The notes under the pieces: model-generated
Databases searched by the model: none
Seen by the model: the letters and a program-made list of their open reading frames with translations, nothing else
What the model was told of the DNA's origin: nothing
Part shown: in pieces, positions 27,889 through 52,338 of the stretch
Layout: each line of letters opens with the position of its first letter
Numbering within the stretch: the stretch's first letter is position 1
Position numbers and translations under genes: made by a program
NCBI GenBank assembly: GCA_947380605.1
Contig: CANCRO010000005.1
Coordinates: 1-53,112, forward strand
Source: Chitinophagaceae bacterium
GTDB taxonomy: Bacteria > Bacteroidota > Bacteroidia > Chitinophagales > Chitinophagaceae
Direction of reading: 5' to 3'
DNA: 53,112 nucleotides

Positions 27889-27900
27889 TGATAAATATCA
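27889..27900. promoter_or_regulatory. FNR/CRP-like palindrome (box A) upstream of the BON gene
   Basis: TGAT-AAAT-ATCA. The end of the box is 93 nt before the BON start codon. A -7-like AATATTTG (7/8 match) lies at 27937-27944. The identical 12-mer recurs at 36065. Confidence 0.6.
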
Positions 27901-27993
27901 ATTAAGCTATTGATTAGACTCATCTATAAACAATATAATATTTGGTTTCTTTAATGATATAAAAATATTTACAAACAATAAAAATTAAGCAAA

Positions 27994-28668
27994 ATGAAAA
28001 GTGATAGTCAAATTCAAAAAGACGTAATGGAGCAATTGAAATGGGAACCTTTTCTAAATGCCTCTGAAATAGGTGTAGCAGTAAAAAATGGTATTGTTAC
28101 CCTGACAGGGCAGGTGGATTCCTATTCAAAGAAACTAACAGCTGAAAAGGCGATTAAAAAAATTGCGGGAGTAAAAGCAATTGCAGAAGAGATTCAAATT
28201 GGCGTTTCACCAGACTTTAAAAAAACAGACACAGAAATTGCAGAAGCAATAATGAATGCGCTAAGGTGGCATACTGCAGTGAAAGAAGAAAAAATTAAAG
28301 TTAAGGTGGAAAATGGAAATGTAAGACTTGAAGGAGAGGTAGAATGGGAGTATCAAAGAAATAATGCAAAAAATGCCATTGAGAATCTAACTGGTGTTCG
28401 ATCAGTAACTAATGCCATTACAGTAAAGTCAAAAATTAGCACTTCAGATATTCAGATAAAAATAAATTCAGCTTTTCATAGAAGTGCCACCATTGATTCA
28501 GCAAAAATTAAGGCAGAAGTGATTGATGGAAAAGTAACGCTTCGAGGAAAAATAAGATCAATAGCTGAAAAAGAAGATGCAGAAAAAGCGGTATGGAATG
28601 CTCCAGGAATTACAAGTGTAGACAATAAATTAGAAATAGAAGTGCCGGCTTATGATTTTGAAGATTAA
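27994..28668 (+). CDS. Triple BON-domain protein
   Basis: The 224-residue protein lacks a signal peptide and is built from three BON repeats (about 3-70, 78-145 and 150-218). Each has the form D..I...v..aL.w....sa..I.v.v.nG.VtL.G.v......AE.a...i.GV. BON domains bind membranes or other ligands, and such proteins (OsmY-like) are typical of osmotic and stress responses. Without a signal sequence it should be cytosolic, unlike OsmY. It opens the stress island and has its own box A. A bidirectional terminator follows. Confidence 0.88.
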   Translation: MKSDSQIQKDVMEQLKWEPFLNASEIGVAVKNGIVTLTGQVDSYSKKLTAEKAIKKIAGVKAIAEEIQIGVSPDFKKTDTEIAEAIMNALRWHTAVKEEKIKVKVENGNVRLEGEVEWEYQRNNAKNAIENLTGVRSVTNAITVKSKISTSDIQIKINSAFHRSATIDSAKIKAEVIDGKVTLRGKIRSIAEKEDAEKAVWNAPGITSVDNKLEIEVPAYDFED

Positions 28669-28687
28669 GAAAATAGTTTTAAAAAAT

Positions 28688-28718
28688 AAGTCCCATTAAT
28701 TAATTTTTAATGGGACTT
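28688..28718. terminator. Bidirectional terminator between BON and HPF genes
   Basis: Perfect 12-base arms AAGTCCCATTAA (28688-28699) and TTAATGGGACTT (28707-28718) surround a 7-nt loop, with A-rich sequence upstream and AT-rich sequence downstream. It serves the two convergent genes. Confidence 0.8.
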
Positions 28719-28736
28719 AATAAAATGTAAAAAAAA

Positions 28737-29075
28737 TTAATGGATTGAATGAGCAGATACCGAATGAATATTTTGAGTTTCATTCATTTTTTTAATCTGA
28801 TGCTTTACCATTCTTTTCAAATCTTTCAATGCTTCTTTAGCAGCACTTTTAAAACTATCAGTTCTGGCATGAGCAAATAAATGATCTCTGAAAACAGTTA
28901 ATCTAATTTCACAAATCTTGTTTTCTGCGGGCACAATAGTAATATCCTCCTTCAATAAAACTTCAGCCCTAGAGATATTTTTAGAAATATGTGAAAGCTC
29001 AATGATATCATTACGCAGCTCACTTATGATTTTTTCAGCAACTTTTCCAAAAGTAGTATGAAACTCAATAGTCAT
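28737..29075 (-). CDS. HPF/RaiA-family ribosome hibernation factor
   Basis: The 112-residue protein fits the short HPF/RaiA (S30AE) family: a first helix KVAEKIISELRNDIIEL, the strand pair RAEVLLKED.../CEIRLTVFRDHLFAHART, and the second helix SFKSAAKEALKDLKRMVKHQIKK. These proteins sit in the 30S decoding region and inactivate ribosomes in stationary phase. It lacks the long-HPF dimerisation domain. It follows the 129-aa gene by 90 nt with no box or terminator between, so it is probably co-transcribed from the box B promoter. Confidence 0.78.
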   Translation of the reverse strand: MTIEFHTTFGKVAEKIISELRNDIIELSHISKNISRAEVLLKEDITIVPAENKICEIRLTVFRDHLFAHARTDSFKSAAKEALKDLKRMVKHQIKKMNETQNIHSVSAHSIH

Positions 29076-29165
29076 AATTAATATTTAAAGATGATTTAAA
29101 ATATATTTCTTGGATTGAAAATGTAGCAACAAAGAGTAGAATAATGAATTGTCAAAAGAGAAGGG

Positions 29166-29555
29166 TTATTTTTTCAGCGTGCCAGACAAGAAATTATAAC
29201 AATTCAATTTTTTATCGACATACTCTTTTTCTATTTTATTAATATTTTGGCGAATTTCAAACTGTTTTGACTCATAAGTGTTAGTGATTAAAGAATCATC
29301 TTTTAATTTCCCATCTAATTGAAGAGAAGAGCTTTGCTCAGTAATTTCATTTTGTAATTTGTAAAACTTATCTGACACCTCGTTCAGTAAGGTTTGCTGA
29401 AATTCAACCTTATCAGCAATTCCAACAATAGAATTCCTACTAATCACCTCTCCAAGTCTTTGCTCGATTTCTTCCATCTCATCATTATAAAATATGATAG
29501 AATTATTCCAATCTAATAATTCAGCAATATAATATTCTGTAATAGTGGTTGACAT
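29166..29555 (-). CDS. 129-aa coiled-coil protein of unknown function
   Basis: This small cytosolic protein is almost entirely helical, with heptad-like Glu/Lys/Leu spacing (about 20-110) and a final NCYNFLSGTLKK. I do not recognise a named family. It is the first gene of a unit with the HPF homologue and has the best promoter of the island: box B plus a perfect -7 element. A stress or ribosome-associated role is suggested by its position only. Confidence 0.65.
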   Translation of the reverse strand: MSTTITEYYIAELLDWNNSIIFYNDEMEEIEQRLGEVISRNSIVGIADKVEFQQTLLNEVSDKFYKLQNEITEQSSSLQLDGKLKDDSLITNTYESKQFEIRQNINKIEKEYVDKKLNCYNFLSGTLKK

Positions 29556-29581
29556 AATTGAAATATAAATAAAATGATTAC

Positions 29582-29646
29582 CAAATATATCGATAGTATT
29601 TGCCTACATTAATGACCATTATTAGTAAATCAAATGATCTTAATCA
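29582..29646 (-). promoter_or_regulatory. Promoter with FNR/CRP-like box B for the 129-aa/HPF unit
   Basis: The box TGAT-CTTA-ATCA is at 29635-29646. On the minus strand, 45 nt downstream, TATATTTG (29582-29589) is a perfect TAnnTTTG -7 element. This is the clearest example of the box-to-promoter arrangement in the window. The start codon at 29555 follows 26 nt after the -7 element. Confidence 0.7.
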
Positions 29647-29735: not shown

Positions 29736-29800
29736 TGATTAATATCATGTAGTAGATGATATTAAATCCTTGCAAAATGAAACTGGGATGTATATTTTTA
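29736..29800 (+). promoter_or_regulatory. Promoter with FNR/CRP-like box C for baeRF
   Basis: The box TGAT-TAAT-ATCA is at 29736-29747. TATTTTTA (29793-29800, 7/8 match to TAnnTTTG) starts exactly 45 nt after it, and the start codon at 29840 is 39 nt beyond. It faces away from box B, 89 nt apart, so two divergent stress units have one box each. Confidence 0.65.
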
Positions 29801-29839
29801 GAAAATAAAATAAGTGCATAAAAATTTAAATAAAAAAAT

Positions 29840-30970
29840 ATGGATAATGATATGATTACAAGCGAACAATTAAAATCGCTACTAAAAGAAAAAGGGAATA
29901 TTTGTATTTCAATCATATTACCTACTCACCGAATATCACCGGAGAGAAGGGTAGATAAAATGAAAATGATAAACGCAATGAATACTGCCAAGCAATTATT
30001 ACAATATAAATACCCAACTGCCGAAATTAAGAACCTATTAAATTCTATTGACGAAATATATCAAAAAATAGTATTCACTCATAATAGTGAAGGAATCGGT
30101 TTATTTATATCTAGTAAGGTTCAACTGCTAGTACAATTTCCATTTCAAGTTGAAGAAAAAGTAATGGTAGGAGAAAGTTTTGAGGTAAGAGATCTAATTT
30201 ATAAAGAAAATAGTTCAATTCCCTACCTAGTAATCCTACTATCAAAAAATACAGTTCGATTATATAATGGAGTACTAGATAAATTGACAGAAGTTATAGA
30301 TGAATACTTTCCAAAAACATATGAAGAGGAATATGAATATAATCCACCTAGTAGAGGAACCCCTTTTGCAGGAGTAAGTACTGTCAGGAATTTTGAAAAA
30401 GAAAAAAGCAGTATGAAAGAAATTAGATATGAACAATTTTATTTAAAAGCAGATAAACAATTACATAAGTATATGAAAATAGAAATGCCTATATTATTAA
30501 TGGGTGTAGAAAAAGATATGACTTGGTTTGAAAAAATATCGAAACATACTAAAAATATTAAAGATAAAATTAATGGAAATTATGACTACCTCAATGAAAA
30601 GCAATTAGTAGATATCGCCTGGCCAACTATGTATAAATATATTCAAAATCAAAACAAATTAGTAATAAAAAAACTAGAAGAAAAAACAGGAAAGCATTTA
30701 GTAATTAATGGAGTTGAGGCTATATGGAAAGCTACTAAGGAAGGGAATTCATTAAAACTACTCGTTGAAAAAGATTTCCGAAAATCAGGTTTTATTACTG
30801 ATGGAGGATACCTATACCACGAAAGGCCAACAGAAAAAGCATACGAAATAGTCACCGATGCGGTAGATGATATAATGGAAATGGTAATAGCAAAAGGTGG
30901 GGAAGTAGTTTTAACAGAAAACCATCTTTTAAATGACTACCAAAAAATCGCCTTGATTACTAGGTATTAA
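29840..30970 (+). CDS. baeRF-family (Balon-like) ribosome hibernation factor, copy 1
   Basis: The 376-residue cytosolic protein resembles the bacterial archaeo-eukaryotic release-factor-like family (baeRF), to which the hibernation factor Balon is related. Features shared with the second copy at 51116 are an N-terminal ISIILPTHR strand, ESFEVRDLIY near residue 115, and the end DAVDDIMEMVIAKGGEVV....DYQKIALI. Balon-type proteins enter the ribosomal A site of idle ribosomes. Here it is divergent from the HPF homologue, which supports a hibernation role; direct ribosome binding is inferred. Family assignment fairly secure, function less so. Confidence 0.78.
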   Translation: MDNDMITSEQLKSLLKEKGNICISIILPTHRISPERRVDKMKMINAMNTAKQLLQYKYPTAEIKNLLNSIDEIYQKIVFTHNSEGIGLFISSKVQLLVQFPFQVEEKVMVGESFEVRDLIYKENSSIPYLVILLSKNTVRLYNGVLDKLTEVIDEYFPKTYEEEYEYNPPSRGTPFAGVSTVRNFEKEKSSMKEIRYEQFYLKADKQLHKYMKIEMPILLMGVEKDMTWFEKISKHTKNIKDKINGNYDYLNEKQLVDIAWPTMYKYIQNQNKLVIKKLEEKTGKHLVINGVEAIWKATKEGNSLKLLVEKDFRKSGFITDGGYLYHERPTEKAYEIVTDAVDDIMEMVIAKGGEVVLTENHLLNDYQKIALITRY

Positions 30971-31339
30971 TTCAATTTACTGACTAATGACATTTTTATA
31001 ACTAATGATAATCATTGATTACCGTAAACATGCAATCTATCTTTACTTTAATACAATTCGTTTTTACTCAGTGAAGAAAGAAAATTGAAATATCAATTTA
31101 AATAAAGGTTTACTATAATAATCGAAAGATTAAAAATAAACTTATCACTAAAAGAATGGGTAACGAAAAGTATAGACTGGTATAAAATTTAAATTAATTA
31201 AATCAAAAACAGTTGAACTCAAGGCAGATTTAAAAAATCTGCCTTGTTTTTTAAACGTAGTTTCCTTCAAAAAGAAAAAGAAGAAAAATTACAAAAAAAA
31301 AGCCAGTCTTAAAATATAGCCTAATAAATTATTTAAGGG
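30971..31339. other. 369-nt non-coding region with dyad and orphan terminator
   Basis: No ORF is supported. It contains two ACTAATGA copies (30983-30990 and 31001-31008), a perfect dyad AATGAT-A-ATCATT at 31004-31016, and a strong terminator at 31220-31252, 250 nt after the baeRF stop and 88 nt before the next ORF. This could be a long 3' UTR or a separate RNA. Confidence 0.5.
31220..31252 (+). terminator. Rho-independent terminator
   Basis: CAAGGCAGATT (31220-31230), a 5-nt loop, and AATCTGCCTTG (31236-31246) form a perfect 11-bp stem followed by six Ts. Confidence 0.85.
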
Positions 31340-33285: not shown

Positions 33286-35853
33286 TTATTTTATACATCT
33301 TAGAATCAATTTTTCAATTTCAACAGCAAAAAATACAATTGATGAAGCTATAAAAACGATCAACAATTCGATGAAGGATAAATTGTCCGTTTTGAAAATA
33401 GATTGAAAAAAAGAAAGATAAGTAACACTAAACTGAAGTAATAGAGTTAACAATACCGTGCCTATCAAGAAAGGGTTAGAGAAAGAATCAAAAGAAAAAG
33501 CAGATTGACCGTCAGAACGAATAGCTAATAAATGCCCTATTTGACTGATACATAAAACATTAAATACAATTGTTTGCCAATGAAATCCATAAAGAATAGA
33601 AAAGTGCTGAGTAAATAAAGTGATAACTGCCATTAGCAATCCAACCCAAATAATATGAATACCCCTTTTATTAGCAAATACAGTTTGGGAAGGAGCAATA
33701 GGAGGTCTATTCATTAAACCTAGTTCGGCCTTTTCAAAAGACAAGGCAATAGCTGGCAAACCATCAGAAACCAAATTAATCCACAAAATATGTATCGGTA
33801 ACAACGCAATAGGTAAACCAATCAAAGGACCAATAAGTAAAGTCCATAATTCACCTGAATTAGTTGTCATGAGATATTTAATCACCTTCAATATATTATC
33901 ATAAATCCTCCTACCCTCTTTAACTGCCAATACAATCGTAGAAAAATTATCATCTAGTAAAATCATATGAGCAGCCTCTTTAGAAACGTCAGTACCTGTA
34001 ATTCCCATGGCGATTCCAATATTGGCCCTTTTCAGTGAAGGAGCGTCATTCACACCATCTCCAGTCATTGCAACATAATAACCCTTATGTTGTATCATTT
34101 TTATAATATGCAATTTTTGTTCAGGAGTAACTCTTGCATAAACCTTTACTGATTCTATAATAGATAAAAAATTTTCATCATTCAATGCTGACAATTGTTG
34201 GCCAGTGATGACTAGGTCGGTTTTACTATTAATAATACCAATTCTTTCTGCAATAGTCTTGGCAGTTACAGGATAATCTCCTGTAATCATTACAGTTATA
34301 ATAGACGCTTCTTTACACTGTGCAATTGCATTTACTACCTCATCTCTGGGCGGATCAATCAGGGCAATTAATCCCAAAAAATTAAGTGATGATTCATGAA
34401 TACTTGAATCCAAAACGGAGGGAATAGCATCCCAAAAACGATAAGAAAAGCCTAAAACCCGGTAACCCTTAAGAGCCATTTCATCAACTTGCTGTAAAAT
34501 AAATTCAGTATCAACAGCCATACAGTTTTGTACTAAAATATCAGGAGCTCCTTTTGTAAAAGAAATAATTTGATTATTAATAGCATGAAAAGTAGTCATC
34601 AGCTTTCGATTAGCATCAAAAGGTATTTCTGCCAGCCGAGGTGATCTTATCATTTGAATTTTAAGAGCAATCAAGAATTTCATCAAAGCTTTTTCGGTAG
34701 TATCCCGTATATTTTCAATATTGGTAACCTCAATGATATCATTGTTTAAAAATATAGCTGGCAGTAATAAATGATCCGGAAACTGCTGGGGAATTGATAA
34801 AAAATTATTTTTTTTAACTAACTGACCATTTATAAAAACCTCCTCCACCTGCATACTATTTTTGGTAAGGGTGCCCGTTTTATCTGTACAAATAAATTTC
34901 ACAGAACCTAAGGTTTCTACAGCAGGCAATCTTCGAATAAGGCAATTAAAACGAACCATTTTCCTAGCAGCTAAGGCTAGAGAAATGGTTATGACTGAAG
35001 GTAATGCTTCTGGAATTGCCGCTACAGCAAGAGAAATACTAGTGAGTATCAAAGTGGAAAGATCTTCGCCTAGATACCAACCAACAGAAAAAAAGACAAA
35101 ACATAATAATAGTACAAGTAGCGTAATTTTTTTTCCAAAAACAACCATTCTCTGTTGAAGAGGGGTAAGCAATTCAATTTCTTGTAATAATTTTGCGATT
35201 CGCCCCAACTCAGTTTGCATTCCAACAGCAATGATAATTCCAACACCTCTACCATAGGTTATAAAAGTACCTTTAAAGGCCATATTAATTTTATCCCCTA
35301 AGGATATATTATCTAAATTAATAGGAGGCGTAATTTTAAAAACTGGATTTGATTCACCCGAAAGGGCAGATTCATCTACTTTTAAGTTCGTCGATTCAAT
35401 TAGGCGAATATCTGCTGGAACAGCGTTTCCTACTTCAAGAAACACAATATCACCCACCACCAAATCTGTTGAAGGCAAAAAGATTTGACTACCATTCCGT
35501 AAAACCTTAGAACGAGGGACTGACATTTTTTTCAATAACCGAATAGCATTTTCAGCACGATATTGTTGAAATAACCCTAAAGAAGTAGTTAATAATACAA
35601 TAATTAAAATAACAATAGTATCAATGATGTCGCCAACAAAATAAGAGATAAAAGCAGCGACTAATAAAATAATAATGAGCACATCCTTAAATTGCTCTAA
35701 AAATACAATCCAAATACTTTTAGCCTTACTTTCATCTAATTCATTTCGACCGTATTCTATCAATCTTTCCTCTGCAGCTACAGAAGAAATTCCTAACTGA
35801 GAAGTCCCTAATAAATCAAAAACCTCTTGAATAGTTAATTTGTGCCAATTCAT
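33286..35853 (-). CDS. P-type Ca2+-transporting-like ATPase
   Basis: The 855-residue inner-membrane pump starts at MNWHKLTIQEVFDLLG, the usual cation-ATPase N-domain start; the longer ORF adds 14 residues outside the family. Motifs: SALSGES (actuator), AAIPEALPSVITI in M4, CTDKTGTLT with phospho-Asp near 324, MTGDGVNDAPSLK, and NLVSDGLPAIALSFE in M6. PEALP with NLVSDG places it in type II (Ca2+/SERCA-PMCA-like). The last C-terminal helices complete ten membrane segments. It has its own box D upstream and is divergent from the metal-binding/L,D-transpeptidase operon. Substrate Ca2+ is likely, Mn2+ possible. Confidence 0.9.
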   Translation of the reverse strand: MNWHKLTIQEVFDLLGTSQLGISSVAAEERLIEYGRNELDESKAKSIWIVFLEQFKDVLIIILLVAAFISYFVGDIIDTIVILIIVLLTTSLGLFQQYRAENAIRLLKKMSVPRSKVLRNGSQIFLPSTDLVVGDIVFLEVGNAVPADIRLIESTNLKVDESALSGESNPVFKITPPINLDNISLGDKINMAFKGTFITYGRGVGIIIAVGMQTELGRIAKLLQEIELLTPLQQRMVVFGKKITLLVLLLCFVFFSVGWYLGEDLSTLILTSISLAVAAIPEALPSVITISLALAARKMVRFNCLIRRLPAVETLGSVKFICTDKTGTLTKNSMQVEEVFINGQLVKKNNFLSIPQQFPDHLLLPAIFLNNDIIEVTNIENIRDTTEKALMKFLIALKIQMIRSPRLAEIPFDANRKLMTTFHAINNQIISFTKGAPDILVQNCMAVDTEFILQQVDEMALKGYRVLGFSYRFWDAIPSVLDSSIHESSLNFLGLIALIDPPRDEVVNAIAQCKEASIITVMITGDYPVTAKTIAERIGIINSKTDLVITGQQLSALNDENFLSIIESVKVYARVTPEQKLHIIKMIQHKGYYVAMTGDGVNDAPSLKRANIGIAMGITGTDVSKEAAHMILLDDNFSTIVLAVKEGRRIYDNILKVIKYLMTTNSGELWTLLIGPLIGLPIALLPIHILWINLVSDGLPAIALSFEKAELGLMNRPPIAPSQTVFANKRGIHIIWVGLLMAVITLFTQHFSILYGFHWQTIVFNVLCISQIGHLLAIRSDGQSAFSFDSFSNPFLIGTVLLTLLLQFSVTYLSFFQSIFKTDNLSFIELLIVFIASSIVFFAVEIEKLILRCIK

Positions 35854-35915
35854 CAGACATAAAAAATATAAAATATAATAATCAATCGAAAACAAGTAAA
35901 AGACTGACTGAAGAA

Positions 35916-35980
35916 TGAATATATAGGATAAAGCAGTGAATTATCATTACTATTTTCAATAAGAATAATGATTAAAATCA
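35916..35980 (-). promoter_or_regulatory. FNR/CRP-like box D upstream of the P-type ATPase
   Basis: TGAT-TAAA-ATCA is at 35969-35980. On the minus strand TATATTCA (35916-35923, weak 6/8 -7 match) begins 45 nt downstream. The gene start is 115 nt from the box. Confidence 0.55.
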
Positions 35981-36064
35981 GTAAAAAATAGATTTGATTG
36001 GATAGATTAAAATAAAAGGAAGCGACTGAAATAGAAAAAAAAATCAATTAAAAATAAGCGCTAA

Positions 36065-36076
36065 TGATAAATATCA
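36065..36076. promoter_or_regulatory. FNR/CRP-like box E upstream of the metal-binding/L,D-transpeptidase operon
   Basis: TGAT-AAAT-ATCA, identical to box A, extends to ATGATA-AA-TATCAT. It ends 98 nt before the ATG at 36175. No good -7 match is seen 45 nt downstream. Confidence 0.55.
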
Positions 36077-36174
36077 TAAATATAAATGCATTTTATCATA
36101 GATTAAAAGATAAAATAATTGAAATATTACCAACCAAAATAGTCTTCTTAAATAGTAACCCCAAAAAAATACAA

Positions 36175-36501
36175 ATGAAAATTGTAAAAATATTAACCGC
36201 TATACTATTAATTATTGTCACTAATCCTGCTTTTTGTCAAGATACCAGTAAAAGACAACATACACTTAGCAATATCAATAAAGGAAATAATAAATACTGC
36301 TGTCCAATGCATACAGCAATAAAAAGTGATCAGCCAGGTAATTGCCCTAAATGTAAAATGAAACTGATCCAATCGAAAAAAGAAATAATGAAAAGTGAGG
36401 TAATGAAAATTTACCAATGCCCCATGCATCCTAATGAAAAAAGCAACCAACCTGGAAAGTGTAAGCTATGTAAAATGGAAATGAAGGAAAAAATAGGATA
36501 A
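36175..36501 (+). CDS. Periplasmic protein with two heavy-metal-binding domains
   Basis: The 108-residue protein has a signal peptide (MKIVKILTAILLIIVTNPAFC). I use ATG 36175 because upstream ATG 36064 overlaps box E and would place 37 residues before the signal. Two tandem heavy-metal-binding repeats have the form CPMH-x8-QPG-x-C-x2-CKM: the first near residues 40-65, the second near 79-104. Such domains chaperone Cu or other soft metals in Bacteroidota efflux systems. It is first in an operon with the L,D-transpeptidase (27-nt gap). Confidence 0.85.
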   Translation: MKIVKILTAILLIIVTNPAFCQDTSKRQHTLSNINKGNNKYCCPMHTAIKSDQPGNCPKCKMKLIQSKKEIMKSEVMKIYQCPMHPNEKSNQPGKCKLCKMEMKEKIG

Positions 36502-36528: not shown

Positions 36529-38067
36529 GTGAAAAAAAGTATTGTAATAATTATATTTTTTTGTTTTAAAAATATTGCACTTTATTCACAGATATCTTCC
36601 TTTGATTTTCGTAATTATATTTTATCCAACAAAATGATTACTAAAGAAGTGAGAGATTTTTATGCTACAAATAACTATCAAATAATTTGGATAAATAAAG
36701 AAAACAAGGTTAATGAATCAGATTTAGAAAAAGTAATAGCAATTTCATCAGAAATTGGATTGTCTGAAACAGACTATAAACCTATAAGTTCTTCTGATAT
36801 TTTAAATACTATTTCTAAAAAAGCAGATTATATCGACTCTATTAAAACTGAAATCCAAATAACAAGTACCGCAATTCATTTTTTTACAGATATCGCTTAT
36901 GGAAATATCAAGCCAAATTTCGGATTCTTTAATTTAAAAACAGCTGAAGCATACCATAATATACCTAAACTTTTAGCTGAGTATATTTCTAAAAAAGAAA
37001 TGTTTAAATTAATTGAAAAAATTACGCCAATACAACCTGAAATAAAAGTTATAGAAAATAGAATTAAAAATTATCAACAAATATTGAAATCTACTGATTT
37101 CAAAGAAATAATCATCAACAAAGGAAAAATCAATAGAAACAATTCTCCTTTATTAGCTAAATTATATCAACTAGGCATCCTTGAAGTCCATAATTTAAAT
37201 TTAACAGATAAGGATTTCAAAACAAAAATTAAAGAGGCACAGATTCAATTCAACCAATTGACAGATGGTGAATTAAGTAATGCACTTATCAATGAATTGA
37301 ATATTCCTATTAAAACAAGACTTCAACAGTTGATACTATCAGTAAACTATTACCGATGGATTTCTAGTATTACAGCGAATCAAACAGCCATCGTTGTAAA
37401 TATTCCAGCAGCAAATCTAAAAGTTTATCATAAAAATAGAGTATCGAATGAAATGAAAATGATAGTGGGCAAGCTATCTACTCCTACCCCAACGCTATGC
37501 AGTTATATTAAAGAGGTAGTGCTATACCCCTACTGGCATGTGCCCTATAGCATAGCTACCAAAGAGCTTTTACCATTAATTAAAAAAAACACCTCCTTTA
37601 TTCAAAATGGAAATTATCAAATATTAAATACTGAAGGTGAAATAATAAACCCTTATTCTATCAATTGGCAATCTTTAAACACCCAACATTTCCCCTATCT
37701 AATCAGACAAAGTTCAGGATGCGATAATGCGCTAGGATTATTAAAACTAAATTTCGATAATCCTTTCGGTGTTTACTTACATGACACTCCAGGTAAAAAT
37801 CTATTTACCTATAACTATCGATTTTTAAGTCATGGTTGTATGAGAATGGAAAAACCAATGGATATCGGTCACTTAGTTCTTCTAAATAATTCTCAAGCAA
37901 TTGACACCTTAGAACAAAAAGGTTGTCTCGTTAATAAATCTCCCACTAAAGTAATCGCTGACCAACAGATACCTATCATAGTATGGTATAATCCAGTTGG
38001 GATAGATTCTTTAGGTCGCTTGGTTTTTTATAAAGACGTATATGGGAAATTCAAATGGATCAATTAA
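36529..38067 (+). CDS. L,D-transpeptidase (YcbB-like) with GTG start
   Basis: The 512-residue exported protein begins at a GTG (MKKSIVIIIFFCF signal); the only nearby ATG (36524) is followed at once by a stop. The long N-terminal scaffold (to about 280) resembles YcbB/LdtD. The YkuD catalytic domain (about 285-470) has the motif HDTPGKNLF...SHGCMRM with nucleophile C437. These enzymes make 3-3 peptidoglycan crosslinks that protect the wall under stress and carbapenems. No separate peptidoglycan-binding domain is seen. It is the middle gene of a three-gene operon under box E. Confidence 0.87.
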   Translation: MKKSIVIIIFFCFKNIALYSQISSFDFRNYILSNKMITKEVRDFYATNNYQIIWINKENKVNESDLEKVIAISSEIGLSETDYKPISSSDILNTISKKADYIDSIKTEIQITSTAIHFFTDIAYGNIKPNFGFFNLKTAEAYHNIPKLLAEYISKKEMFKLIEKITPIQPEIKVIENRIKNYQQILKSTDFKEIIINKGKINRNNSPLLAKLYQLGILEVHNLNLTDKDFKTKIKEAQIQFNQLTDGELSNALINELNIPIKTRLQQLILSVNYYRWISSITANQTAIVVNIPAANLKVYHKNRVSNEMKMIVGKLSTPTPTLCSYIKEVVLYPYWHVPYSIATKELLPLIKKNTSFIQNGNYQILNTEGEIINPYSINWQSLNTQHFPYLIRQSSGCDNALGLLKLNFDNPFGVYLHDTPGKNLFTYNYRFLSHGCMRMEKPMDIGHLVLLNNSQAIDTLEQKGCLVNKSPTKVIADQQIPIIVWYNPVGIDSLGRLVFYKDVYGKFKWIN

Positions 38068-38124: not shown

Positions 38125-38763
38125 ATGGAAAAGGCAAACAAGATTCTTATTATACTTATAATAATTTGTAATGGATGTAGTAGCTCAAAAATTACAAGTT
38201 ATTGGAAAGATACTACTGTAGTAAGTAAGGAATATAAGAAAATAATGGTTTTAGGTCTTATCCGTGAATCCGATAGGAGTTTACAACAAAATATGGAAAA
38301 TCATTTAGTAGGCGATTTACAAATAATAGGATATAATGCTATATCAGCACTTCAATATTATGGACCTAAATCTTTTGAAAAAATAGAAGAGCAAGCTGCA
38401 ATCGAAAAAATAAAAAATACAGGGGTAGATGCAGTAATAACAATAGTATTATTAGATAAGAAAAAAGAAAGAAAATATATTCCTGGAAATATTTATTATT
38501 CACCTTATAGCTATTACTACAATCACTTTTGGGGCTACAGAAGTACTTTATATAACCGTATTCATGAAACTGGCTACTATGTAACTGACACTAAATACTT
38601 TTGGGAAAGCAATCTTTATGATATAGAGACTCAAAAATTAATTTATTCTGTTCAAACTCAATCTTTTGAGCCTTCTAGTTCAGAAATAATGGGACACGAG
38701 TACGGACAAATGATCGTAAAGAATATGATAAACAATACGATATTAAATAATAATAAAAGGTAA
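38125..38763 (+). CDS. Small lipoprotein, DUF4136-like, unknown function
   Basis: The 212-residue protein has a signal with lipobox CNGC at residues 15-18, then SSSKITSYWKDTT. The region EYKKIMVLGLIRESDRSLQQNMENHLVGDL followed by DAVITIVLL resembles the core of DUF4136/CsgG-like envelope lipoproteins. A Tyr-rich stretch (about 125-155) is unusual. It lies 57 nt after the L,D-transpeptidase in the same direction and should sit in the periplasm or outer membrane. Confidence 0.65.
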   Translation: MEKANKILIILIIICNGCSSSKITSYWKDTTVVSKEYKKIMVLGLIRESDRSLQQNMENHLVGDLQIIGYNAISALQYYGPKSFEKIEEQAAIEKIKNTGVDAVITIVLLDKKKERKYIPGNIYYSPYSYYYNHFWGYRSTLYNRIHETGYYVTDTKYFWESNLYDIETQKLIYSVQTQSFEPSSSEIMGHEYGQMIVKNMINNTILNNNKR

Positions 38764-38784: not shown

Positions 38785-39843
38785 TTAATTGAGTAAATGC
38801 TGTAATTTTTTTTGATTGATTATAACAATGCTTCCATCCTTAATTTCAATCATTTTTTCATTCCTAAAATCGCTAAGTGTCCGAATAAGGGATTCAGTAG
38901 CAGTTCCTGCAATGGTGGCAAGACTTTCGCGGCTGATATCTATAACAAAATTATCTTCTACTGCTAACTGGTATTTCCTTTGGAGTAAAATAAGAGCCTC
39001 TGCTACCTTTTTTCGAAGAGAGTTATAAGCTAACCCTAATAATTGATTTTCTTTATTTGAAATATTTTTAGCAAGCAGTTTTATAAAATTTCTTGACACT
39101 TCTTTATTGTTATTTAAAATATCTTCAAATTCCTCTTTAGGTATAATAGCCAATTCAGATTCTTCTAAAGCCTCCGCTGTATCTTTATAAACCGTTTCTT
39201 CCATTAAAGCGATATACCCTAAAAAATCACCAGTACTATAAAGGTCAGTTACTAATTCTTTTCCATCTTCATTCCTCTTGTAAGTTTTAACTTTTCCTTT
39301 TAAAACATAATAAAGCCTATTGGGGTGATTACCTTGTGTATAAATAACCTGTTTTTTCTTATACACATTAATATTACGATCATCCTTTAAAGACTGTAAT
39401 GCATTATCATCTTCTGAAACCTTTAATAAATTTTGAAGATTTTGTAAATCACTTGACAACTCTTGTTTCAATAATCCAATTTTATTCAACCTACTATCCA
39501 CTGCATTTAATAATTCAGTACCACTAAATGGTTTGGTAACAAAATCGTCAGCGCCTAATTCCATTCCTTTCCTAAAATCACTGCGTTCTGTTTTTGCGGT
39601 CAAAAAAATAAATGGAGTGTTTTTAATTAATTCATTTTTATGTACTGCATGTAATACCCCATATCCATCTAAAACTGGCATCATAATGTCACAAATTATT
39701 AAATCAGGAGAAAATTCCATCGCCATTTCTACTCCAACTTTACCATTTTCAGCTAAAAAAACTTGGTAATTTGATAACTCTAGAATTTCAGCCGTATTGT
39801 GGCGGATATCGTAATTATCCTCAATCAATAATATTTTTTTCAT
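38785..39843 (-). CDS. Receiver-cNMP-Crp hybrid response regulator
   Basis: The 352-residue protein fuses a CheY-like receiver (1-120; acidic pair E8/D9, phospho-acceptor D52 in CDIMMPVLDG, K104), a coiled linker (about 122-150), a cyclic-nucleotide-like sensory barrel (about 155-255) and a Crp-type winged helix (about 270-352). The recognition helix TATESLIRTL carries E317 and R321, the Glu-x3-Arg pair that contacts TGA half-sites in FNR and CRP. It lies 65 nt after the PAS kinase gene and is probably its partner. Candidate regulator of boxes A-I. No box lies upstream of the kinase-regulator unit. Confidence 0.9.
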   Translation of the reverse strand: MKKILLIEDNYDIRHNTAEILELSNYQVFLAENGKVGVEMAMEFSPDLIICDIMMPVLDGYGVLHAVHKNELIKNTPFIFLTAKTERSDFRKGMELGADDFVTKPFSGTELLNAVDSRLNKIGLLKQELSSDLQNLQNLLKVSEDDNALQSLKDDRNINVYKKKQVIYTQGNHPNRLYYVLKGKVKTYKRNEDGKELVTDLYSTGDFLGYIALMEETVYKDTAEALEESELAIIPKEEFEDILNNNKEVSRNFIKLLAKNISNKENQLLGLAYNSLRKKVAEALILLQRKYQLAVEDNFVIDISRESLATIAGTATESLIRTLSDFRNEKMIEIKDGSIVIINQKKLQHLLN

Positions 39844-41946: not shown

Positions 41947-42405
41947 TTATAAAATGCTTCCAGTACCAAAGACGCTTTCTTTTACAAAAATTTTTAACTC
42001 AGCGGGTAAAACATTTACTACATCTTCCATTTCACCATCAGATATAAAGTATTGCAAGGCATTGAAAACAGCTGAAACTGCTTTTTTAGTAGCCAGTTGA
42101 TCTCCAAAATCATATCTAGCTAATCCACCATCCTCTTTTCTTACTTCATCAAGGAAATCAGAAAGATGAGTTATCCGTTTAAAATCTTTATTGAATTTCC
42201 AGCCATCAACATAAACACCCTTTAAAGACATCGGTAATTGCGCTAGTAATTGAAAGGACTCTTCATGGGGTAATCGATTTCTAATGGAATGAAAAACTGC
42301 ACGAATTATCCTTCCTGCTCTTTCTTTTGGTACTGAAAGAGCATCGGTTATTAAACTAACAAACTCGTTACCCTTTATTGCATATTTTTCAAAATCAATT
42401 GACAT
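41947..42405 (-). CDS. DUF2267 family protein
   Basis: The 152-residue cytosolic protein is helical, with the family pattern FVSLITDALSVPKERAGRIIRAVFHSIRNRLPHEESFQLLAQLPMSLKGVYVDGW near residues 15-70, and VFNALQYFISDGEMEDVVNVLPAELKIFV at the end. DUF2267 proteins occur in stress gene groups of Bacteroidota and other bacteria; function unknown. It comes last in the YtxH-led minus-strand run, 107 nt after the 68-aa gene. Confidence 0.85.
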   Translation of the reverse strand: MSIDFEKYAIKGNEFVSLITDALSVPKERAGRIIRAVFHSIRNRLPHEESFQLLAQLPMSLKGVYVDGWKFNKDFKRITHLSDFLDEVRKEDGGLARYDFGDQLATKKAVSAVFNALQYFISDGEMEDVVNVLPAELKIFVKESVFGTGSIL

Positions 42406-42836: not shown

Positions 42837-43073
42837 TCATACCATTCTCTCACCTTTTTCTCTGGCAGCCTGTAACAAATCATCTGCGAGATCATTGAAT
42901 TTATTCCTACCCCTTCTAAACTTATTCTGAACATCCTCCACTATTTTTTTCCCTTGTCCACTAATTTTCTTTCTCGTTTCACTGCCTTTTTCAGGTGCAA
43001 ATAAAACCCCTACGATTGTCCCTACTACCATTCCTGCTCCTACAGCGGTTAATATTTTATTTGTATTATTCAT
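42837..43073 (-). CDS. YtxH-domain membrane protein
   Basis: The 78-residue protein has one N-terminal membrane segment with the YtxH hallmark ILTAVGAGMVVGTIVGVLFAPEKGSETRKKI, then a basic amphipathic helix to the end. YtxH proteins are general-stress membrane proteins. It is the first gene of the run YtxH - 34 aa - 68 aa - DUF2267, with box F upstream. Confidence 0.85.
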   Translation of the reverse strand: MNNTNKILTAVGAGMVVGTIVGVLFAPEKGSETRKKISGQGKKIVEDVQNKFRRGRNKFNDLADDLLQAAREKGERMV

Positions 43074-43102
43074 AAAAAAAAATTTAAGGTTAATGATAGT
43101 TG

Positions 43103-43166
43103 CAAGTTAATGGTAATGCCAGCTTATAAAAATGATAGACCTCATTGGCCGTGATGATAATTATCA
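43103..43166 (-). promoter_or_regulatory. Promoter region with FNR/CRP-like box F for the YtxH run
   Basis: Box TGAT-AATT-ATCA (43155-43166) is a perfect 12-base palindrome. On the minus strand TTAACTTG (43103-43110, 6/8 to TAnnTTTG) starts 44 nt downstream. The YtxH start is 81 nt from the box, almost the same as for the 129-aa gene (79 nt). Confidence 0.6.
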
Positions 43167-43211
43167 GCGTCCAAATAATTAAAACGATTTTTCAAAATAG
43201 AATCTAAACTA

Positions 43212-43276
43212 TGACTAAAATCATATTTTACAATGACCCTGTACATAAATTAAACTTTCAATCTATTCTATATTCG
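43212..43276 (+). promoter_or_regulatory. Promoter-like unit with box G facing an orphan terminator
   Basis: Box TGAC-TAAA-ATCA (43212-43223) is followed after exactly 45 nt by TATATTCG (43269-43276, 7/8 match to TAnnTTTG). There is no ORF downstream before a strong terminator at 43311. Confidence 0.5.
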
Positions 43277-43282
43277 TATCGG

Positions 43283-43343
43283 TTTTTCATAGGATATTGG
43301 ATTTTAAACCAGGGCTGGATTTTTATCCTGGCCCTCTTTTTTT
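43283..43343 (+). ncRNA. Candidate stress-regulated small RNA (about 60 nt)
   Basis: Predicted from architecture only: the box G promoter would start transcription near 43283 and the terminator hairpin (43311-43335) with its T-run (43337-43343) would end it. The RNA would have a single-stranded 5' part of about 28 nt, with TCATAGGATATTGG as possible seed, and the terminator hairpin. The start is estimated to within a few bases. It could instead be a spurious or leader transcript. Confidence 0.35.
43311..43343 (+). terminator. Orphan Rho-independent terminator
   Basis: AGGGC-T-GGAT (43311-43320), loop TTTT, and ATCCTGGCCCT (43325-43335) pair with one bulge, followed by C and seven Ts. No plus-strand gene lies within 4 kb upstream on this strand, so it must end an unannotated transcript. 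Confidence 0.75.
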
Positions 43344-43442
43344 ATACCCCCTCCTAAATCAATCTCCTCCATTACTAAACTACTCTCCACTTTTCTAACC
43401 CCTTCGATAACATCATAGTTTCTAAACTTCATTTAAATACAA

Positions 43443-43483
43443 TGACCATAATCAGTATTTAGATTGATAGTTATTTTAGTTTG
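43443..43483 (+). promoter_or_regulatory. FNR/CRP-like box H upstream of the zinc-ribbon gene
   Basis: Box TGAC-CATA-ATCA (43443-43454) is followed after 21 nt by TTAGTTTG (43476-43483, 7/8). The box centre would fall near -41.5 from a start about 7 nt past the -7 element, the class II activator position. The gene starts 77 nt after the box. Confidence 0.5.
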
Positions 43484-43531
43484 AAGAAATTTTATGAAAG
43501 ACATTAGCAATTCACCTTTCAAACACATTAT

Positions 43532-43795
43532 ATGCAAGGAAATAGATTTTGTCAAAGCTGTTTACTTCCCATGTCCGGCTCATCAATGATAGGAACTAAC
43601 CTTGATGGCAGTCTGAATAAAAAATTCTGTGGAAATTGTTACCAAAATGGTGATTTTACTGCTCCAGAAATTACCTTACAAGAAATGAAACAAAAGGTTA
43701 AAACAGTACTTGAGGCAAATAAAATCCCTTCCAATGTGATTGATCTATCAATCACCTATTTACCTAAGCTTGCAAGATGGAAAAATGTAGTCTAA
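43532..43795 (+). CDS. Small zinc-ribbon protein
   Basis: The 87-residue cytosolic protein has FCQSCLLPMSG (C8, C11) and KKFCGNCYQNGDF (C33, C36) forming one four-Cys zinc ribbon, then TAPEITLQEMKQKV. It matches the putative zinc-ribbon family in which the pattern CQSCxMPM...GTNxDGSxN...YCxxCYQNGxF is conserved. Function unknown. Monocistronic under box H, convergent with the mlaD gene (7-nt gap). Confidence 0.8.
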   Translation: MQGNRFCQSCLLPMSGSSMIGTNLDGSLNKKFCGNCYQNGDFTAPEITLQEMKQKVKTVLEANKIPSNVIDLSITYLPKLARWKNVV

Positions 43796-45583: not shown

Positions 45584-46360
45584 TTAATTTAAACCAAGCA
45601 CATCTGTTACTTGAACAGCCAACAAATCAATGATAAAAATCACAACAGATGAAACCACTACCGCAGAATTTGCTGAGCGCCCAACACCTTCGGTCCCTTT
45701 ATTACTTTTAAAACCTTTATAAGATCCAATTACACCTACTGCAAAACCAAAAAAATAACTTTTAATAAAAGCAGGTAATACATCGCTAAACGTGATGTTA
45801 TTAAAAACTTGAGTCCAAAATAAATAGAAACTAGTATTTCCTCGGATATTAACCCCTATCCAGGACCCATACAATGAAACGCAATCTCCTAATAATACAA
45901 GAATGGGTAACATTAATGTAGCAGCCAATACCCTTGTAACCACCAAATATTTAAATGGATTTGTACCACTAACTTCCATTGCATCAATTTGTTCGGTCAC
46001 TTTCATTGAACCTAATTCAGCACCGATACTACTTCCGATTTTTCCTGCAAATATCAAGGCAACAATTACTGGTCCTATTTCCCGAATAATTGCGATTCCA
46101 ACAATAGCAGGTAACTGGGCGGCTACACCGTAATCTTCCATAGAAGGGCGCAACTGAATGGTGAGTACCAATCCTAATATAAAAGCGGTTAACCCTACTA
46201 GTGGAAGTGATTGATACCCTATAACAAAACATTGCCGAAGCAATTCAGCTATTTCATAACGAGGTCTAAACCATTGAGAAAAAAAACGTCGGGTAAATCT
46301 AGCGATATCTCCAGCCTCCCTTAAAAAAATCTTTAGGCTAGACGAGTAAGAGGTAACCAT
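45584..46360 (-). CDS. MlaE-type ABC permease
   Basis: The 258-residue inner-membrane protein has five to six hydrophobic segments. The MlaE/DUF140 hallmarks are REIGPVIVALIFAGKIGSSIGAELGSMKVTEQIDAMEVSG and the late GFKSNKGTEGVGRSANSAVV. It opens the minus-strand operon mlaE-mlaF-mlaD. The MlaA/B/C partners are not in the window, which is usual for Bacteroidota. Confidence 0.93.
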   Translation of the reverse strand: MVTSYSSSLKIFLREAGDIARFTRRFFSQWFRPRYEIAELLRQCFVIGYQSLPLVGLTAFILGLVLTIQLRPSMEDYGVAAQLPAIVGIAIIREIGPVIVALIFAGKIGSSIGAELGSMKVTEQIDAMEVSGTNPFKYLVVTRVLAATLMLPILVLLGDCVSLYGSWIGVNIRGNTSFYLFWTQVFNNITFSDVLPAFIKSYFFGFAVGVIGSYKGFKSNKGTEGVGRSANSAVVVSSVVIFIIDLLAVQVTDVLGLN

Positions 46361-50113: not shown

Positions 50114-50123
50114 TATTTTAAAA

Positions 50124-50156
50124 AACGCCTTAATTTAAATTAGGGCGTTTTTTTTT
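50124..50156 (+). terminator. Terminator of the DUF1080-propeller operon
   Basis: AACGCCTTAAT (50124-50134) pairs with ATTAGGGCGTT (50139-50149) with one G-U, followed by Ts to 50156. Confidence 0.8.
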
Positions 50157-50244
50157 AGAAAAGATTGATTAAATAAATTGAAGGATTTTTATAAAAGAGT
50201 TAATGCTAAATATTTTTAAAGATAAAATATTGTTCCTTGATAAT

Positions 50245-51066
50245 CTAGGTCTCATGAATTGCCATTACTGGAACATGGCTATGCAGTACTAACTGCTTAC
50301 TTTGACTTTTATGAATTAGTTTATCGAAAAAACTGTGCCTTTTAGGCAATACAATTAATAAATCAATCTTATTTTTAATAGAAAAATCCATGACTCCTTG
50401 ATCAATTTGATCACTTGAAATAAAGTGATAGTGAGGAAGCAAAGGAGCCAACATGTCTTCCAGTACTTTAGATCGAAAAACAGTATCAGGATTAAAATAG
50501 GTTTCTTTACCAGTATTGAGTACATGAAGCTCAGCAGAAAAATCTTTTAATAAAATTTTAATTTCTTCAACAGGTGTTTCATCTACTTCTTTTTCAAAGT
50601 CAAAGGCTAAGCCAATATTTTTAATGGTAGAAAATGTTGCATCAATTGGAACGGTAATCAAAGGCCAAGCCAAATGTTTCATTGCATAAACTGTATGTCC
50701 ACCAAAAAATAATCTTTCAGCAGCAGTAGTGCCTTGACTTCCCATTACAACAGCGTAGGGCTTAACCGATTTACATTCAGCTTGTAACTCATCAAAAAAT
50801 TCACCTAATCTGAGCGAAGTGTCAACTTTTAATTTAGCTCCTCTTTTCAATAATAATTGACTTCTCAAACGGTGGATACTCTTTTCTGCATCATGTCGCA
50901 TTTCATCTTCGGTATAGGCCAAAGGTACTTCAAGATAAATAACGGGTAATTGATATACATGTAATATCAAAAGAGTTGCATTGATTGTTAAGGCCATATC
51001 AGCAGCATAATTAACTGCATTTGAGGCTGTTGGGGAAAAGTCAGTAACTACGATTAATGTTTTCAT
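50245..51066 (-). CDS. Universal stress protein (two UspA domains)
   Basis: The 273-residue cytosolic protein has a complete N-terminal USP domain: IVVTDFSPTASNAVNYA at the start, VVMGSQGTTAAERLFFGGHTVYAMKHLAWPLITVP near 105-140. A degenerate second domain lacks the Gly-rich nucleotide loop and ends KSQSKQLVLHSHVPVMAI. It follows the second baeRF gene by 49 nt on the same strand and is probably co-transcribed from box I. Confidence 0.88.
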   Translation of the reverse strand: MKTLIVVTDFSPTASNAVNYAADMALTINATLLILHVYQLPVIYLEVPLAYTEDEMRHDAEKSIHRLRSQLLLKRGAKLKVDTSLRLGEFFDELQAECKSVKPYAVVMGSQGTTAAERLFFGGHTVYAMKHLAWPLITVPIDATFSTIKNIGLAFDFEKEVDETPVEEIKILLKDFSAELHVLNTGKETYFNPDTVFRSKVLEDMLAPLLPHYHFISSDQIDQGVMDFSIKNKIDLLIVLPKRHSFFDKLIHKSQSKQLVLHSHVPVMAIHET

Positions 51067-51115
51067 TTTCTACTATTTAAATTTGATTGATAAAATCTGA
51101 AAGCGACAACTAGTT

Positions 51116-52213
51116 TTAAAAAAAATCTATTAAAGCGATATGTTGATAATCCTTTAACACTTCAGCATCTACAAACTCAACATCTCCTCCATTTTCAAGT
51201 ACTTTTTCCATCACATCATCCACCGCATCTCTTATGTAAGAAAATTTATTATAAGGTGCTAACAATTCTTCCAATAAATCAGTTCCATTACCAAGTTGTG
51301 CAGCATATTTAAAATTCTTTTCAACTACTAGCAGACGACCCTTTCTTTTCATTGCTTCCCGCCAAACATTGGTCATACCAATGGCCAGTTTATTTTTACT
51401 AGCCGCCTGATCCAATCTATTTAGTATATCCTTTTGTTTAACTTTTTTCCAATCTGAAATGGAAGGCAATAAAACTTCATTCAAAGCATCATTAGAAATT
51501 TTCTCATCATTTATAAGCAAAAAATCAACTACCATACCGGCATGCTTAGTAAGCAATTTAAAATGACCCAATAAGCTTTCTGTTCCTACTACAAAAAGTG
51601 GCAATCGATATGCCGGAAGTATAATAGGTAAGGAGTTATCAATTTGGTTCAAAAACCTTATAATACTTATTTTCTTAAGGGAAGAATTTTCAGAAAAACC
51701 AAAACCTTCATTTAAATAGTCTTTAGCATCATAATTGATTAATTCAGGTTGATTAGAGACAATTCTAACTAATGAAGATGAATGACCAAAATAAATAACA
51801 CTTTCATTTTCCCTTATCAGCAGAACTAGGTATTTATGGGAATTTTTTTTACTATACACTAAATCTCTAATTTCAAAAGACTCATCAATAATCGTTTTTT
51901 GCTCTACCGCAATATCTAGGTACAATACTTTTTCGAATATTGGAGACACATAGATAGCGATACTACACTTATGGGTATTATAATTGAGCTTCTTTATAAT
52001 GTTAGTTAGCTTGTGTAATATCAAAGAAGTCATCTCCATTGAATAGTTTTCCTTCAATTCTCTCTCTACACTATCTACCGCAACCTTTAGGCAATGTTGT
52101 ATCTCAGCTTTTGAACTCATTTTTGGTTCAAAAGGCATGATAATAGAAACAGCAGGTCGATAGTTAACTAGATCAATTATTTCGTGAATTTCAGGCGCAA
52201 GTAATCTATTCAT
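51116..52213 (-). CDS. baeRF-family (Balon-like) ribosome hibernation factor, copy 2
   Basis: The 365-residue paralogue of the protein at 29840 shares an N-terminal VSIIMPFEPKMSSK strand, ESFEVRDLVY near residue 130 and the end DAVDDVMEKVLENGGDVE...DYQHIALIDFF. Overall identity is low, so the duplication is old. The central region is shorter than in copy 1. It is probably a cytosolic ribosome-associated protein; its pairing with a universal stress protein agrees with a dormancy role. Box I lies upstream. Confidence 0.75.
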   Translation of the reverse strand: MNRLLAPEIHEIIDLVNYRPAVSIIMPFEPKMSSKAEIQHCLKVAVDSVERELKENYSMEMTSLILHKLTNIIKKLNYNTHKCSIAIYVSPIFEKVLYLDIAVEQKTIIDESFEIRDLVYSKKNSHKYLVLLIRENESVIYFGHSSSLVRIVSNQPELINYDAKDYLNEGFGFSENSSLKKISIIRFLNQIDNSLPIILPAYRLPLFVVGTESLLGHFKLLTKHAGMVVDFLLINDEKISNDALNEVLLPSISDWKKVKQKDILNRLDQAASKNKLAIGMTNVWREAMKRKGRLLVVEKNFKYAAQLGNGTDLLEELLAPYNKFSYIRDAVDDVMEKVLENGGDVEFVDAEVLKDYQHIALIDFF

Positions 52214-52295
52214 ACATGTGTAATTATTTATGCTACTTAAATCTTACTTGTAACAAGTTTTCTAGAAACTTAGCATCTTAAGATTCATTAGCTAA

Positions 52296-52338
52296 TAAAA
52301 CTACCTTTTAACTATAGCTATAATAATGACAACAGTCA
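52296..52338 (-). promoter_or_regulatory. FNR/CRP-like box I upstream of the second baeRF gene
   Basis: TGAC-AACA-GTCA (52327-52338) is a perfect palindrome. TAGTTTTA (minus strand, 52296-52303, 7/8 to TAnnTTTG) starts 23 nt downstream. The gene start is 113 nt from the box. Confidence 0.5.

Follow-up and report, generated by a model that had tools for sequence, protein, structure and literature searches.

A phased tandem operator and a candidate receiver-CRP regulator for Balon-type hibernation genes in the Chitinophagaceae

What turns on Balon-type ribosome hibernation factors outside the mycobacteria is, to our knowledge, largely open. The question is raised by a stretch of 53,112 nt from a Chitinophagaceae bacterium (contig CANCRO010000005.1 of GCA_947380605.1; hereafter the window, called C5 in genome-wide scans), which carries two genes of the Balon-type hibernation factor family. 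The products of baeRF_a (29840-30970, + strand; PF18845, 1.5e-32) and baeRF_b (51116-52213, - strand; PF18845, 4.1e-18) both match Pfam baeRF family 3, and both score below the 330-bit cut-off of the Balon equivalog NF052287 (254 and 180 bits, respectively). Between them lie genes for a receiver-CRP response regulator (38785-39843, -) and a PAS-PAS histidine kinase (39909-41558, -). A sequence-only reading of the window had proposed an undescribed regulon marked by nine FNR/CRP-like palindromes. Computation reveals a tandem operator of rigid spacing that is phased to promoters, conserved upstream of baeRF genes and co-occurs with the receiver-CRP. It is probably the operator of this protein, which would take a low-oxygen signal from the PAS kinase and activate a dormancy/low-oxygen programme.

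All nine palindromes (TGAYN4RTCA) are exact matches at the positions first given, and window positions 1-27600 hold none, in line with the earlier statement on intergenic regions of the housekeeping part. Their position between genes is correct for these nine but not for all matches, a tenth (45631) lying inside mlaE. Each palindrome is only half of the operator unit, which is a 34-bp tandem, TGAN6TCA-N10-TGAN6TCA; at most sites the second half-site 22 bp away had been missed, as had one further tandem-like promoter (30981). In the window and 20 homology-chosen stretches from relatives, 32 TGAN6TCA pairs stand at a spacing of 22 and no more than two at any other spacing up to 60. The genome from which the window comes contains TGAYN4RTCA-N10-TGA 12 times, six of them within C5:27.9-52.4 kb, against five matches to the reversed control. 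When one mismatch is allowed, eight distinct places, 30981 among them, fall in these 24.5 kb and 16 in the other 2.86 Mb (p 1.7e-11 for clustering, in a region picked beforehand by the sequence-only reading); many of the 16 are probably chance, since this looser pattern yields 30 rows against 12 for its reversed control. Outside the window this genome has a single strict tandem operator (L100:6919-6952, on G000:C35), which stands upstream of a gene for a 162-residue protein (L100:6350-6835, -) that matches nothing in Pfam or NCBIfam. At G151:C333:5122-5221, G014:C2:2518584-2518639 and G190:C269:5043-5098, three to five TGAN6TCA sites follow each other in 22-bp steps, an arrangement that might accommodate more than two dimers in a row.

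The tandem is also fixed relative to the promoter. This was analyzed in 166 pairs of tandem site and start codon (135 distinct sites; start 25-220 bp downstream), from loci of which many had been fetched for containing tandem sites and none by their -7 box. In 26 of the 166 pairs TAnnTTTG begins at precisely +40 from the centre of the tandem, and in three or fewer it begins at any other offset; a -7 match of at least 5/6 occurs at +40 in 67 pairs, against an average of 1.8 for offsets beyond 39-41. A rigid pattern in which the place of TTTG was guessed had found nothing, and the correct offset was later taken from the data. PMC9723704 places the Bacteroidota -7 box at -12 to -5. With the box so placed, the two dimer centres are near -41.5 and -63.5. 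The former is the class II position of CRP and FNR, which suggests activation rather than repression. Five of the ten promoters of the window have a box of at least 5/6 in this slot (6/6 for a gene encoding a 129-residue protein, 5/6 each for baeRF_a, 30981, 43212 and baeRF_b), as do 1.2% of intergenic 8-mers (p 6e-8, to be read with the caveats that the slot of 30981 was known before this site was included and that the single core of baeRF_a was taken as the distal site). Upstream of baeRF_a the core palindrome (29736-29747, +) has a weak 22-bp partner and the -7-like TATTTTTA in the slot; baeRF_b has a strict tandem operator (12/12; 52327-52360, -) and, in its slot, the -7-like TAGTTTTA. The best-formed promoter of the window is that of the 129-residue protein gene (29166-29555, -; family unknown, with no match in Pfam or NCBIfam), where the slot of a tandem operator (11/12; 29613-29646, -) is occupied by a flawless -7 box, TATATTTG. 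The operator is assigned to this gene and the HPF-like one as a unit. The gene is on the same strand as, and just upstream of, one encoding an HPF/RaiA-like protein (28737-29075, -; Ribosomal_S30AE), which barely exceeds the PF02482 cut-off (25.0 against 23.7 bits).

Is the motif denser here than elsewhere, and is it conserved? Eight intergenic matches in the 5,218 bp between genes of window 27600-53112 (gene-caller boundaries) give 1.53/kb, whereas 20 background stretches of the same genome (383,838 bases) contain 11 in 44,032 intergenic bp, or 0.25/kb, from which 1.3 would be expected in 5,218 bp (Poisson p 6.5e-5). Three of these stretches (C78, C28 and C35) had been selected for containing motif or paralogue matches; when they are removed, six matches remain in 37,916 bp (0.16/kb). 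The whole window has 10 matches against 3.5 (standard deviation 1.8) in shuffles, and 10 were reached by one of 100 shuffles. Across the genome the 12-mer by itself is common (254 sites, with 201 of its reversed form), so that statistics on single palindromes alone were rejected as too weak a proof; the signal is carried by the clustering and the 22-bp partner. In relatives, 20 stretches of 20 kb around receiver-CRP/baeRF genes, picked by protein homology in 11 genomes, contain the motif 94 times in 50.2 kb of intergenic DNA (1.87/kb). It occurs nine times in 51.6 kb (0.17/kb) of 20 random stretches placed away from such loci in ten of the same genomes, a roughly 11-fold difference (binomial p 1.7e-19). 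Between the two sets the reversed control is flat (3 vs. 3), while strict tandem sites number 29 vs. 0. The equal density in random DNA that the sequence-only reading had named as fatal to its regulon is found neither in this genome nor in the relatives.

Conservation upstream of orthologues, predicted by the same reading, was scored at 11/12 or better in homology-chosen loci (L001-L080, own copies excluded) and is borne out for the baeRF genes. A tandem site precedes 24 of 26 of them (baeRF_a 9/9, baeRF_b 15/17), compared to 6/325 genes in random stretches of relatives, 0/269 in the own-genome background (L081-L097) and 55/268 other genes in stretches L061-L080. Inclusion of the own copy gives 25/27 against 6/325 (Fisher p 2e-30), the window's baeRF_a reaching 11/12 only via the divergent operator of the 129-residue protein gene within 300 bp. 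As a query against the genome contig collection, baeRF_a found no relative. Tandem sites also precede orthologues of MlaE (4/4), the PAS kinase (5/16), the L,D-transpeptidase (1/2) and the receiver-CRP (2/30), whose gene usually follows that of the kinase; they were not seen at MlaD (0/1), MlaF (0/6) or hyp191 (0/3). HPF, HMBD, DUF2267, YtxH and the Zn-ribbon protein have no readable relative in these loci and do not enter the counts. The tenth exact palindrome of the window (45631-45642) lies within the mlaE open reading frame and has no 22-bp partner; it is probably chance, though in four relatives a tandem operator does precede the MlaE gene.

Genes 15-200 bp downstream of strict tandem sites were collected from the own genome and five relatives (sites fetched: G045, 21/21; G126, 10/10; G104, 14/14; G141, 15/17; G085, eight of nine listed out of 11). 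Both sides of divergent sites were kept, so not every collected gene is a target. The 71 proteins, four of them from the own genome, include at least four baeRF (one own), three universal stress proteins (Usp) and two BON proteins (one own), as well as two each of hemA, hemN, hemH, hemerythrin and FtsH and one MlaE, among the 25 shown of 93 Pfam families. In G104 the receiver-CRP gene itself lies downstream of a strict tandem site.

The proposed regulator combines a receiver (PF00072) with a cNMP-binding domain (PF00027, 2.2e-23) and a Crp helix-turn-helix (HTH; PF13545, 2.2e-12), which places it in the CRP/FNR superfamily. The phospho-acceptor Asp52, together with Asp9 and Lys104, is invariant in 36/36 aligned sequences, as in a response regulator. 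Glu317 and Arg321 of the recognition helix, positioned on that of CRP by alignment, are likewise invariant in 36/36; we take their CRP counterparts to be E181 and R185, the residues that read TGA, and the TGA-N6-TCA half-site geometry to be close to the FixK/FNR box. The translation contains one Cys (Cys51) and lacks the N-terminal Cys cluster of 4Fe-4S FNR. A PAS kinase homologue is present within the roughly 4-kb locus in 25 of 30 receiver-CRP loci (L031-L060). Motif density and baeRF conservation support well a regulon, as claimed earlier, and the receiver-CRP as its regulator; what changes is the unit, a phased 22-bp tandem in place of a single palindrome.

The operator also accompanies the regulator across genomes. 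The strict tandem pattern is present in 158 of 195 family genomes, with 953 matches in all, whereas its reversal has 24. The 138 family genomes with a receiver-CRP (E < 1e-60) hold 889 sites and six of them have none, whereas the 57 without a full receiver-CRP hold 64 and 31 have none (Mann-Whitney p 1.4e-17 for site number, kinship not removed). Of 395 genomes across the phylum, the 55 with a receiver-CRP hold 218 sites and the 340 without hold 177, 231 of these having none (p 6e-18, again with kinship not removed).

The mechanism that these observations suggest would begin with the PAS kinase, whose first PAS domain (PAS1) is of the FixL type and may sense falling oxygen or a related heme ligand. 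The kinase would phosphorylate the receiver of the adjacent receiver-CRP, and phosphorylation would in turn drive two dimers to bind, cooperatively, to one face of the DNA, centred at about -41.5 and -63.5. So bound, they would activate promoters with a TAnnTTTG -7 box, and the output would be Balon-type hibernation factors, Usp, BON and small envelope proteins, and a small RNA. A bolder version, which we put forward only tentatively, is that a heme kinase and a single-protein FixJ-FixK fusion, assembled as a dimer pair by phosphorylation, constitute a widespread oxygen/dormancy system of the Bacteroidota that acts on double operators, couples Balon/HPF hibernation directly with heme and cbb3 respiration and an undescribed small RNA, and is an independently evolved counterpart of DosR.

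Several observations weigh against the main mechanism set out above. Their co-occurrence is confounded by kinship; in the phylum the strict tandem site is absent from 12 of the 55 genomes with a receiver-CRP (11 of the 22 in family f5), and 16 genomes that have none hold at least three sites. CRP/FNR proteins in general share the Glu...Arg recognition helix, which therefore does not single out the receiver-CRP. The window kinase lacks an Arg-Pro-Met-Gly stretch common in its relatives, and the cores before a metal ATPase gene on contig C78 (12566/12587) are 21, not 22, bp apart. Conservation is uneven. Tandem sites precede BON, Usp and lipoprotein orthologues in 1/3, 3/13 and 1/7 cases, although Usp genes are often second in a unit behind baeRF and the core motif precedes 6/7 lipoprotein genes. 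None was found upstream of orthologues of the P-type ATPase (0/4, 31-51% identical), the phosphorylase (0/3) or the 129-residue protein (0/1); of the targets first claimed, conservation supports the baeRF genes and does not support the ATPase. The -7 box in the slot is also poor for BON, the P-type ATPase, YtxH and the Zn-ribbon gene (4/6 each) and for HMBD (3/6).

If the regulon is real, what does it respond to? A signal other than oxygen (nitric oxide, redox or nutrient stress), with hibernation as the main purpose, is unlikely but deserves to be taken seriously, as PAS domains bind many ligands and the targets include many general stress genes. However, the best solved matches of PAS1 are the heme PAS of FixL (1.8e-8) and then that of DosP, and the operator is found at cbb3 and heme-synthesis genes. 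At the position of the FixL heme ligand, 28 of 30 readable kinases have the aligned His, one has Leu and one Glu, and three more have a gap. The kinase is best described as a FixL-like PAS kinase, presumed from its sequence to bind heme and sense oxygen. A second kinase/receiver-CRP pair of the own genome, on C78 (L098, 544-12430), adjoins cbb3 oxidase genes, its neighbours being ccoG, ccoN/O, ccoS, a ccoP-like gene (below cut-off) and a heavy-metal P-type ATPase gene; a tandem-like site with one mismatch (C78:9815) lies upstream of ccoS. In Flavobacterium psychrophilum, oxygen limitation raises expression of cbb3 oxidase and heme synthesis, according to PMC9723704. The FixL-like PAS, the paralogous pair beside the cbb3 oxidase and the heme genes among relatives' targets are the reasons why the theme looks like low oxygen, in place of the generic hibernation with "envelope and ion functions" first suggested.

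Whatever the signal, the operator could belong to a stand-alone CRP/FNR protein, an Fe-S FNR, with the receiver-CRP merely a neighbour. This is rather improbable, yet eight inspected genomes with sites and no full receiver-CRP all encode a stand-alone CRP 32-40% identical to its CRP part. The N-terminus bears CxxC..C in 6/6 of the genes read (L191, L192, L194, L196, L197, L198), and a strict tandem site adjoins the Cys-rich CRP gene in two of the six (L196:1365 and L198:2152). Against this, site number rises with the presence of the receiver-CRP, and the genome under study has sites yet, by an HTH_Crp_2 search, no Cys-rich CRP. Its matches are three: the receiver-CRP, a 62%-identical paralogue on C78 and a weaker, different protein of 210 residues on C31. 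Most likely, the receiver-CRP and stand-alone CRPs read the same operator in different genomes. Because an FNR-like CRP with an adjoining tandem site occurs in L196 and L198, the operator seems to have persisted where the input domain changed, and this domain may have been swapped. The L196 and L198 sites precede genes that look, by eye, hemerythrin-like and CcoI-like.

With the receiver-CRP retained as the probable reader, one may still ask whether it binds as one dimer or two. That the downstream "second site" is a -33 promoter element and the operator a single-dimer site is very improbable. The proximal site does cover the -33 region and several partners in the window are weak, but both halves of the partner are enriched on either side. 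When 102 intergenic sites are aligned (202 oriented readings), the maxima of TGA fall precisely at +22 (32%) and -22 (31%) and those of TCA at +31 (31%) and -13 (32%), against 1-2% at most other offsets. The perfect copy is proximal only in 62 of the 166 pairs, distal only in 58, both in 42 and neither in four; at baeRF_b it is the copy closer to the gene. The -33 reading was rejected on this two-sided enrichment and on the proximal/distal balance. Chance, the idea that AT-rich intergenic DNA simply yields such palindromes, can draw on the modest excess of the bare 12-mer over its reversal but is contradicted by the reversed controls, the 22-bp spacing and the -7 phasing and ruled out by random stretches of the same genomes, which leaves it a negligible probability.

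How does this compare to known systems? The FixL-FixJ-FixK system of rhizobia and Caulobacter likewise comprises a FixL-type PAS kinase, a receiver and a CRP/FNR-type effector with cbb3 and heme targets. Here, in contrast, there is no separate FixJ with a LuxR-type HTH; receiver and CRP domain are in one protein, as if FixJ and FixK had fused, and the operator is a 22-bp tandem with hibernation and Usp targets. The FNR/ANR/DNR regulons share the half-sites, the hemN, hemA and cbb3 targets and the -41.5 position, whereas here a receiver input replaces the Fe-S cluster and the double site is rigid. DosR/DevR of Mycobacterium and OsdR of Streptomyces are similar as two-component dormancy regulons with many sites around the regulator locus, but the effector here has a Crp-type HTH rather than that of the NarL/FixJ type, the DNA site is unrelated, and the sensor domain is PAS where mycobacterial DosR sensors use GAF. 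Usp and PPDK genes are among the OsdR targets (PMC5069765), and the Balon homologues Rv2629 and Msmeg1130 are hypoxia-induced (PMC10901736). Kinship with Balon is seen in the match of both proteins to Pfam baeRF family 3 and in the HPF neighbourhood, as described in PMC6514570 and PMC10901736, whereas the scores stay under the NCBIfam equivalog cut-off.

In the open literature, chiefly open-access, we found no regulator of Bacteroidota Balon/baeRF members and nothing matching such a Bacteroidota regulon, operator or RNA, and "undescribed" is to be taken as provisional. The parts are of known kinds; what is new, on the same provisional footing, is a regulator of fused FixJ-FixK-like make, a double operator with 22-bp spacing and hibernation as the output. 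Together they provide a testable cis-code and a candidate regulator for Balon-type factors across a large environmental family, and the specificity of the operator (953 against 24) allows the regulon to be read from sequence in many unstudied genomes. If the proposal is true, two phyla would have coupled low oxygen to the same hibernation genes through unrelated regulators, a clear convergence.

The remaining sites of the window precede a varied set of genes. A strict tandem operator (12/12; 27889-27922, +) is centred 88 bp upstream of the gene for a triple BON-domain protein (27994-28668, +; PF04972, E 4.9e-50), and a tandem-like one (11/12; 35947-35980, -) lies upstream of the gene for a P-type cation ATPase of calcium type (33286-35895, -; profile match). 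A further tandem-like operator (36065-36098, +) falls within the 5' end of the open reading frame called for an HMBD heavy-metal-binding protein (36064-36501, +; profile match); judging by the translation, the true start is likely an ATG near 36172, some 90 bp beyond the centre of the operator. Genes for a YkuD L,D-transpeptidase (36529-38067) and a lipoprotein-like protein (38125-38763) follow. Beyond the kinase gene are those of a DUF2267 protein (41947-42405, -) and a YtxH protein (42837-43073, -), both profile matches, the latter with a strict tandem operator upstream (12/12; 43133-43166, -). A core palindrome with half a partner (TGA at +22; 43443-43476, +) precedes a Zn_ribbon_2 protein gene (43532-43795, +; profile match), and a Usp gene (50245-51066, -; profile match) lies downstream of baeRF_b.

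Two "orphan" sites remain. At 30981-31014 (+) a tandem-like operator (10/12) with the -7-like TATCTTTA in the slot has no gene close downstream. A possible second orphan transcript would extend from here (31049-31254, +; fold z -5.25), its start estimated from the -7 slot, to a strong 12-pair terminator at 31220-31246. No open reading frame of 60 or more residues is listed between the two, and by blastn no conservation beyond the terminator was found among the loci in hand.

The other site, a tandem operator (11/12; 43212-43245, +) with the -7-like TATATTCG in the slot, is predicted to drive a small RNA. The "orphan terminator" first reported here does exist, but it is the end of a conserved 63-nt element (43281-43343, +; 69 bp from the operator start; fold z -2.3, with 5/200 shuffles as good). 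An Rfam search of 42900-43600 to E 1 found nothing over the RNA, the sole match being sub-threshold at 43063-43164; weak Rfam matches (GibS, E 0.81, and three others) were judged to be chance. Among the loci in hand, elements 76-84% identical were found in four other genomes, of which one belongs to the same genus and three to different genera. A search pattern that fixed 21 bases matched at least 120 stretches of the genome contig collection. Of these, the 80 listed carry in their titles Chitinophagaceae, Chitinophagales or the names of genera such as Niastella, Terrimonas and Flavihumibacter (members of the Chitinophagaceae), or, less precisely, Bacteroidetes, Bacteroidota or Sphingobacteria. 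In 40 aligned copies of 78 distinct ones, 25 columns are invariant, 21 of them fixed by the search pattern; each of the eight bases before the pattern (GGTTTTTC) is conserved in no fewer than 90%, and at three stem pairs both partners vary. The 5' part, GGTTTTTCATAGGATATTGGAT, is highly conserved, although part of it is required by the pattern. Pairing of this part with 330 start regions reached -19.6 kcal/mol at best, within the range of 20 shuffles (mean best -17.6, lowest -20.2), and no mRNA target is therefore claimed. The RNA family (copies L202-L281), whose terminator stem covaries, is common in the Chitinophagaceae, and some genomes have several copies. A tandem site (at least 10/12) lies upstream of four of 84 readable copies, the window's own included, and the other 80 lack one. 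The small RNA is thus ruled out as a general member of the regulon, and the window has a regulon-controlled copy of a wider RNA family.

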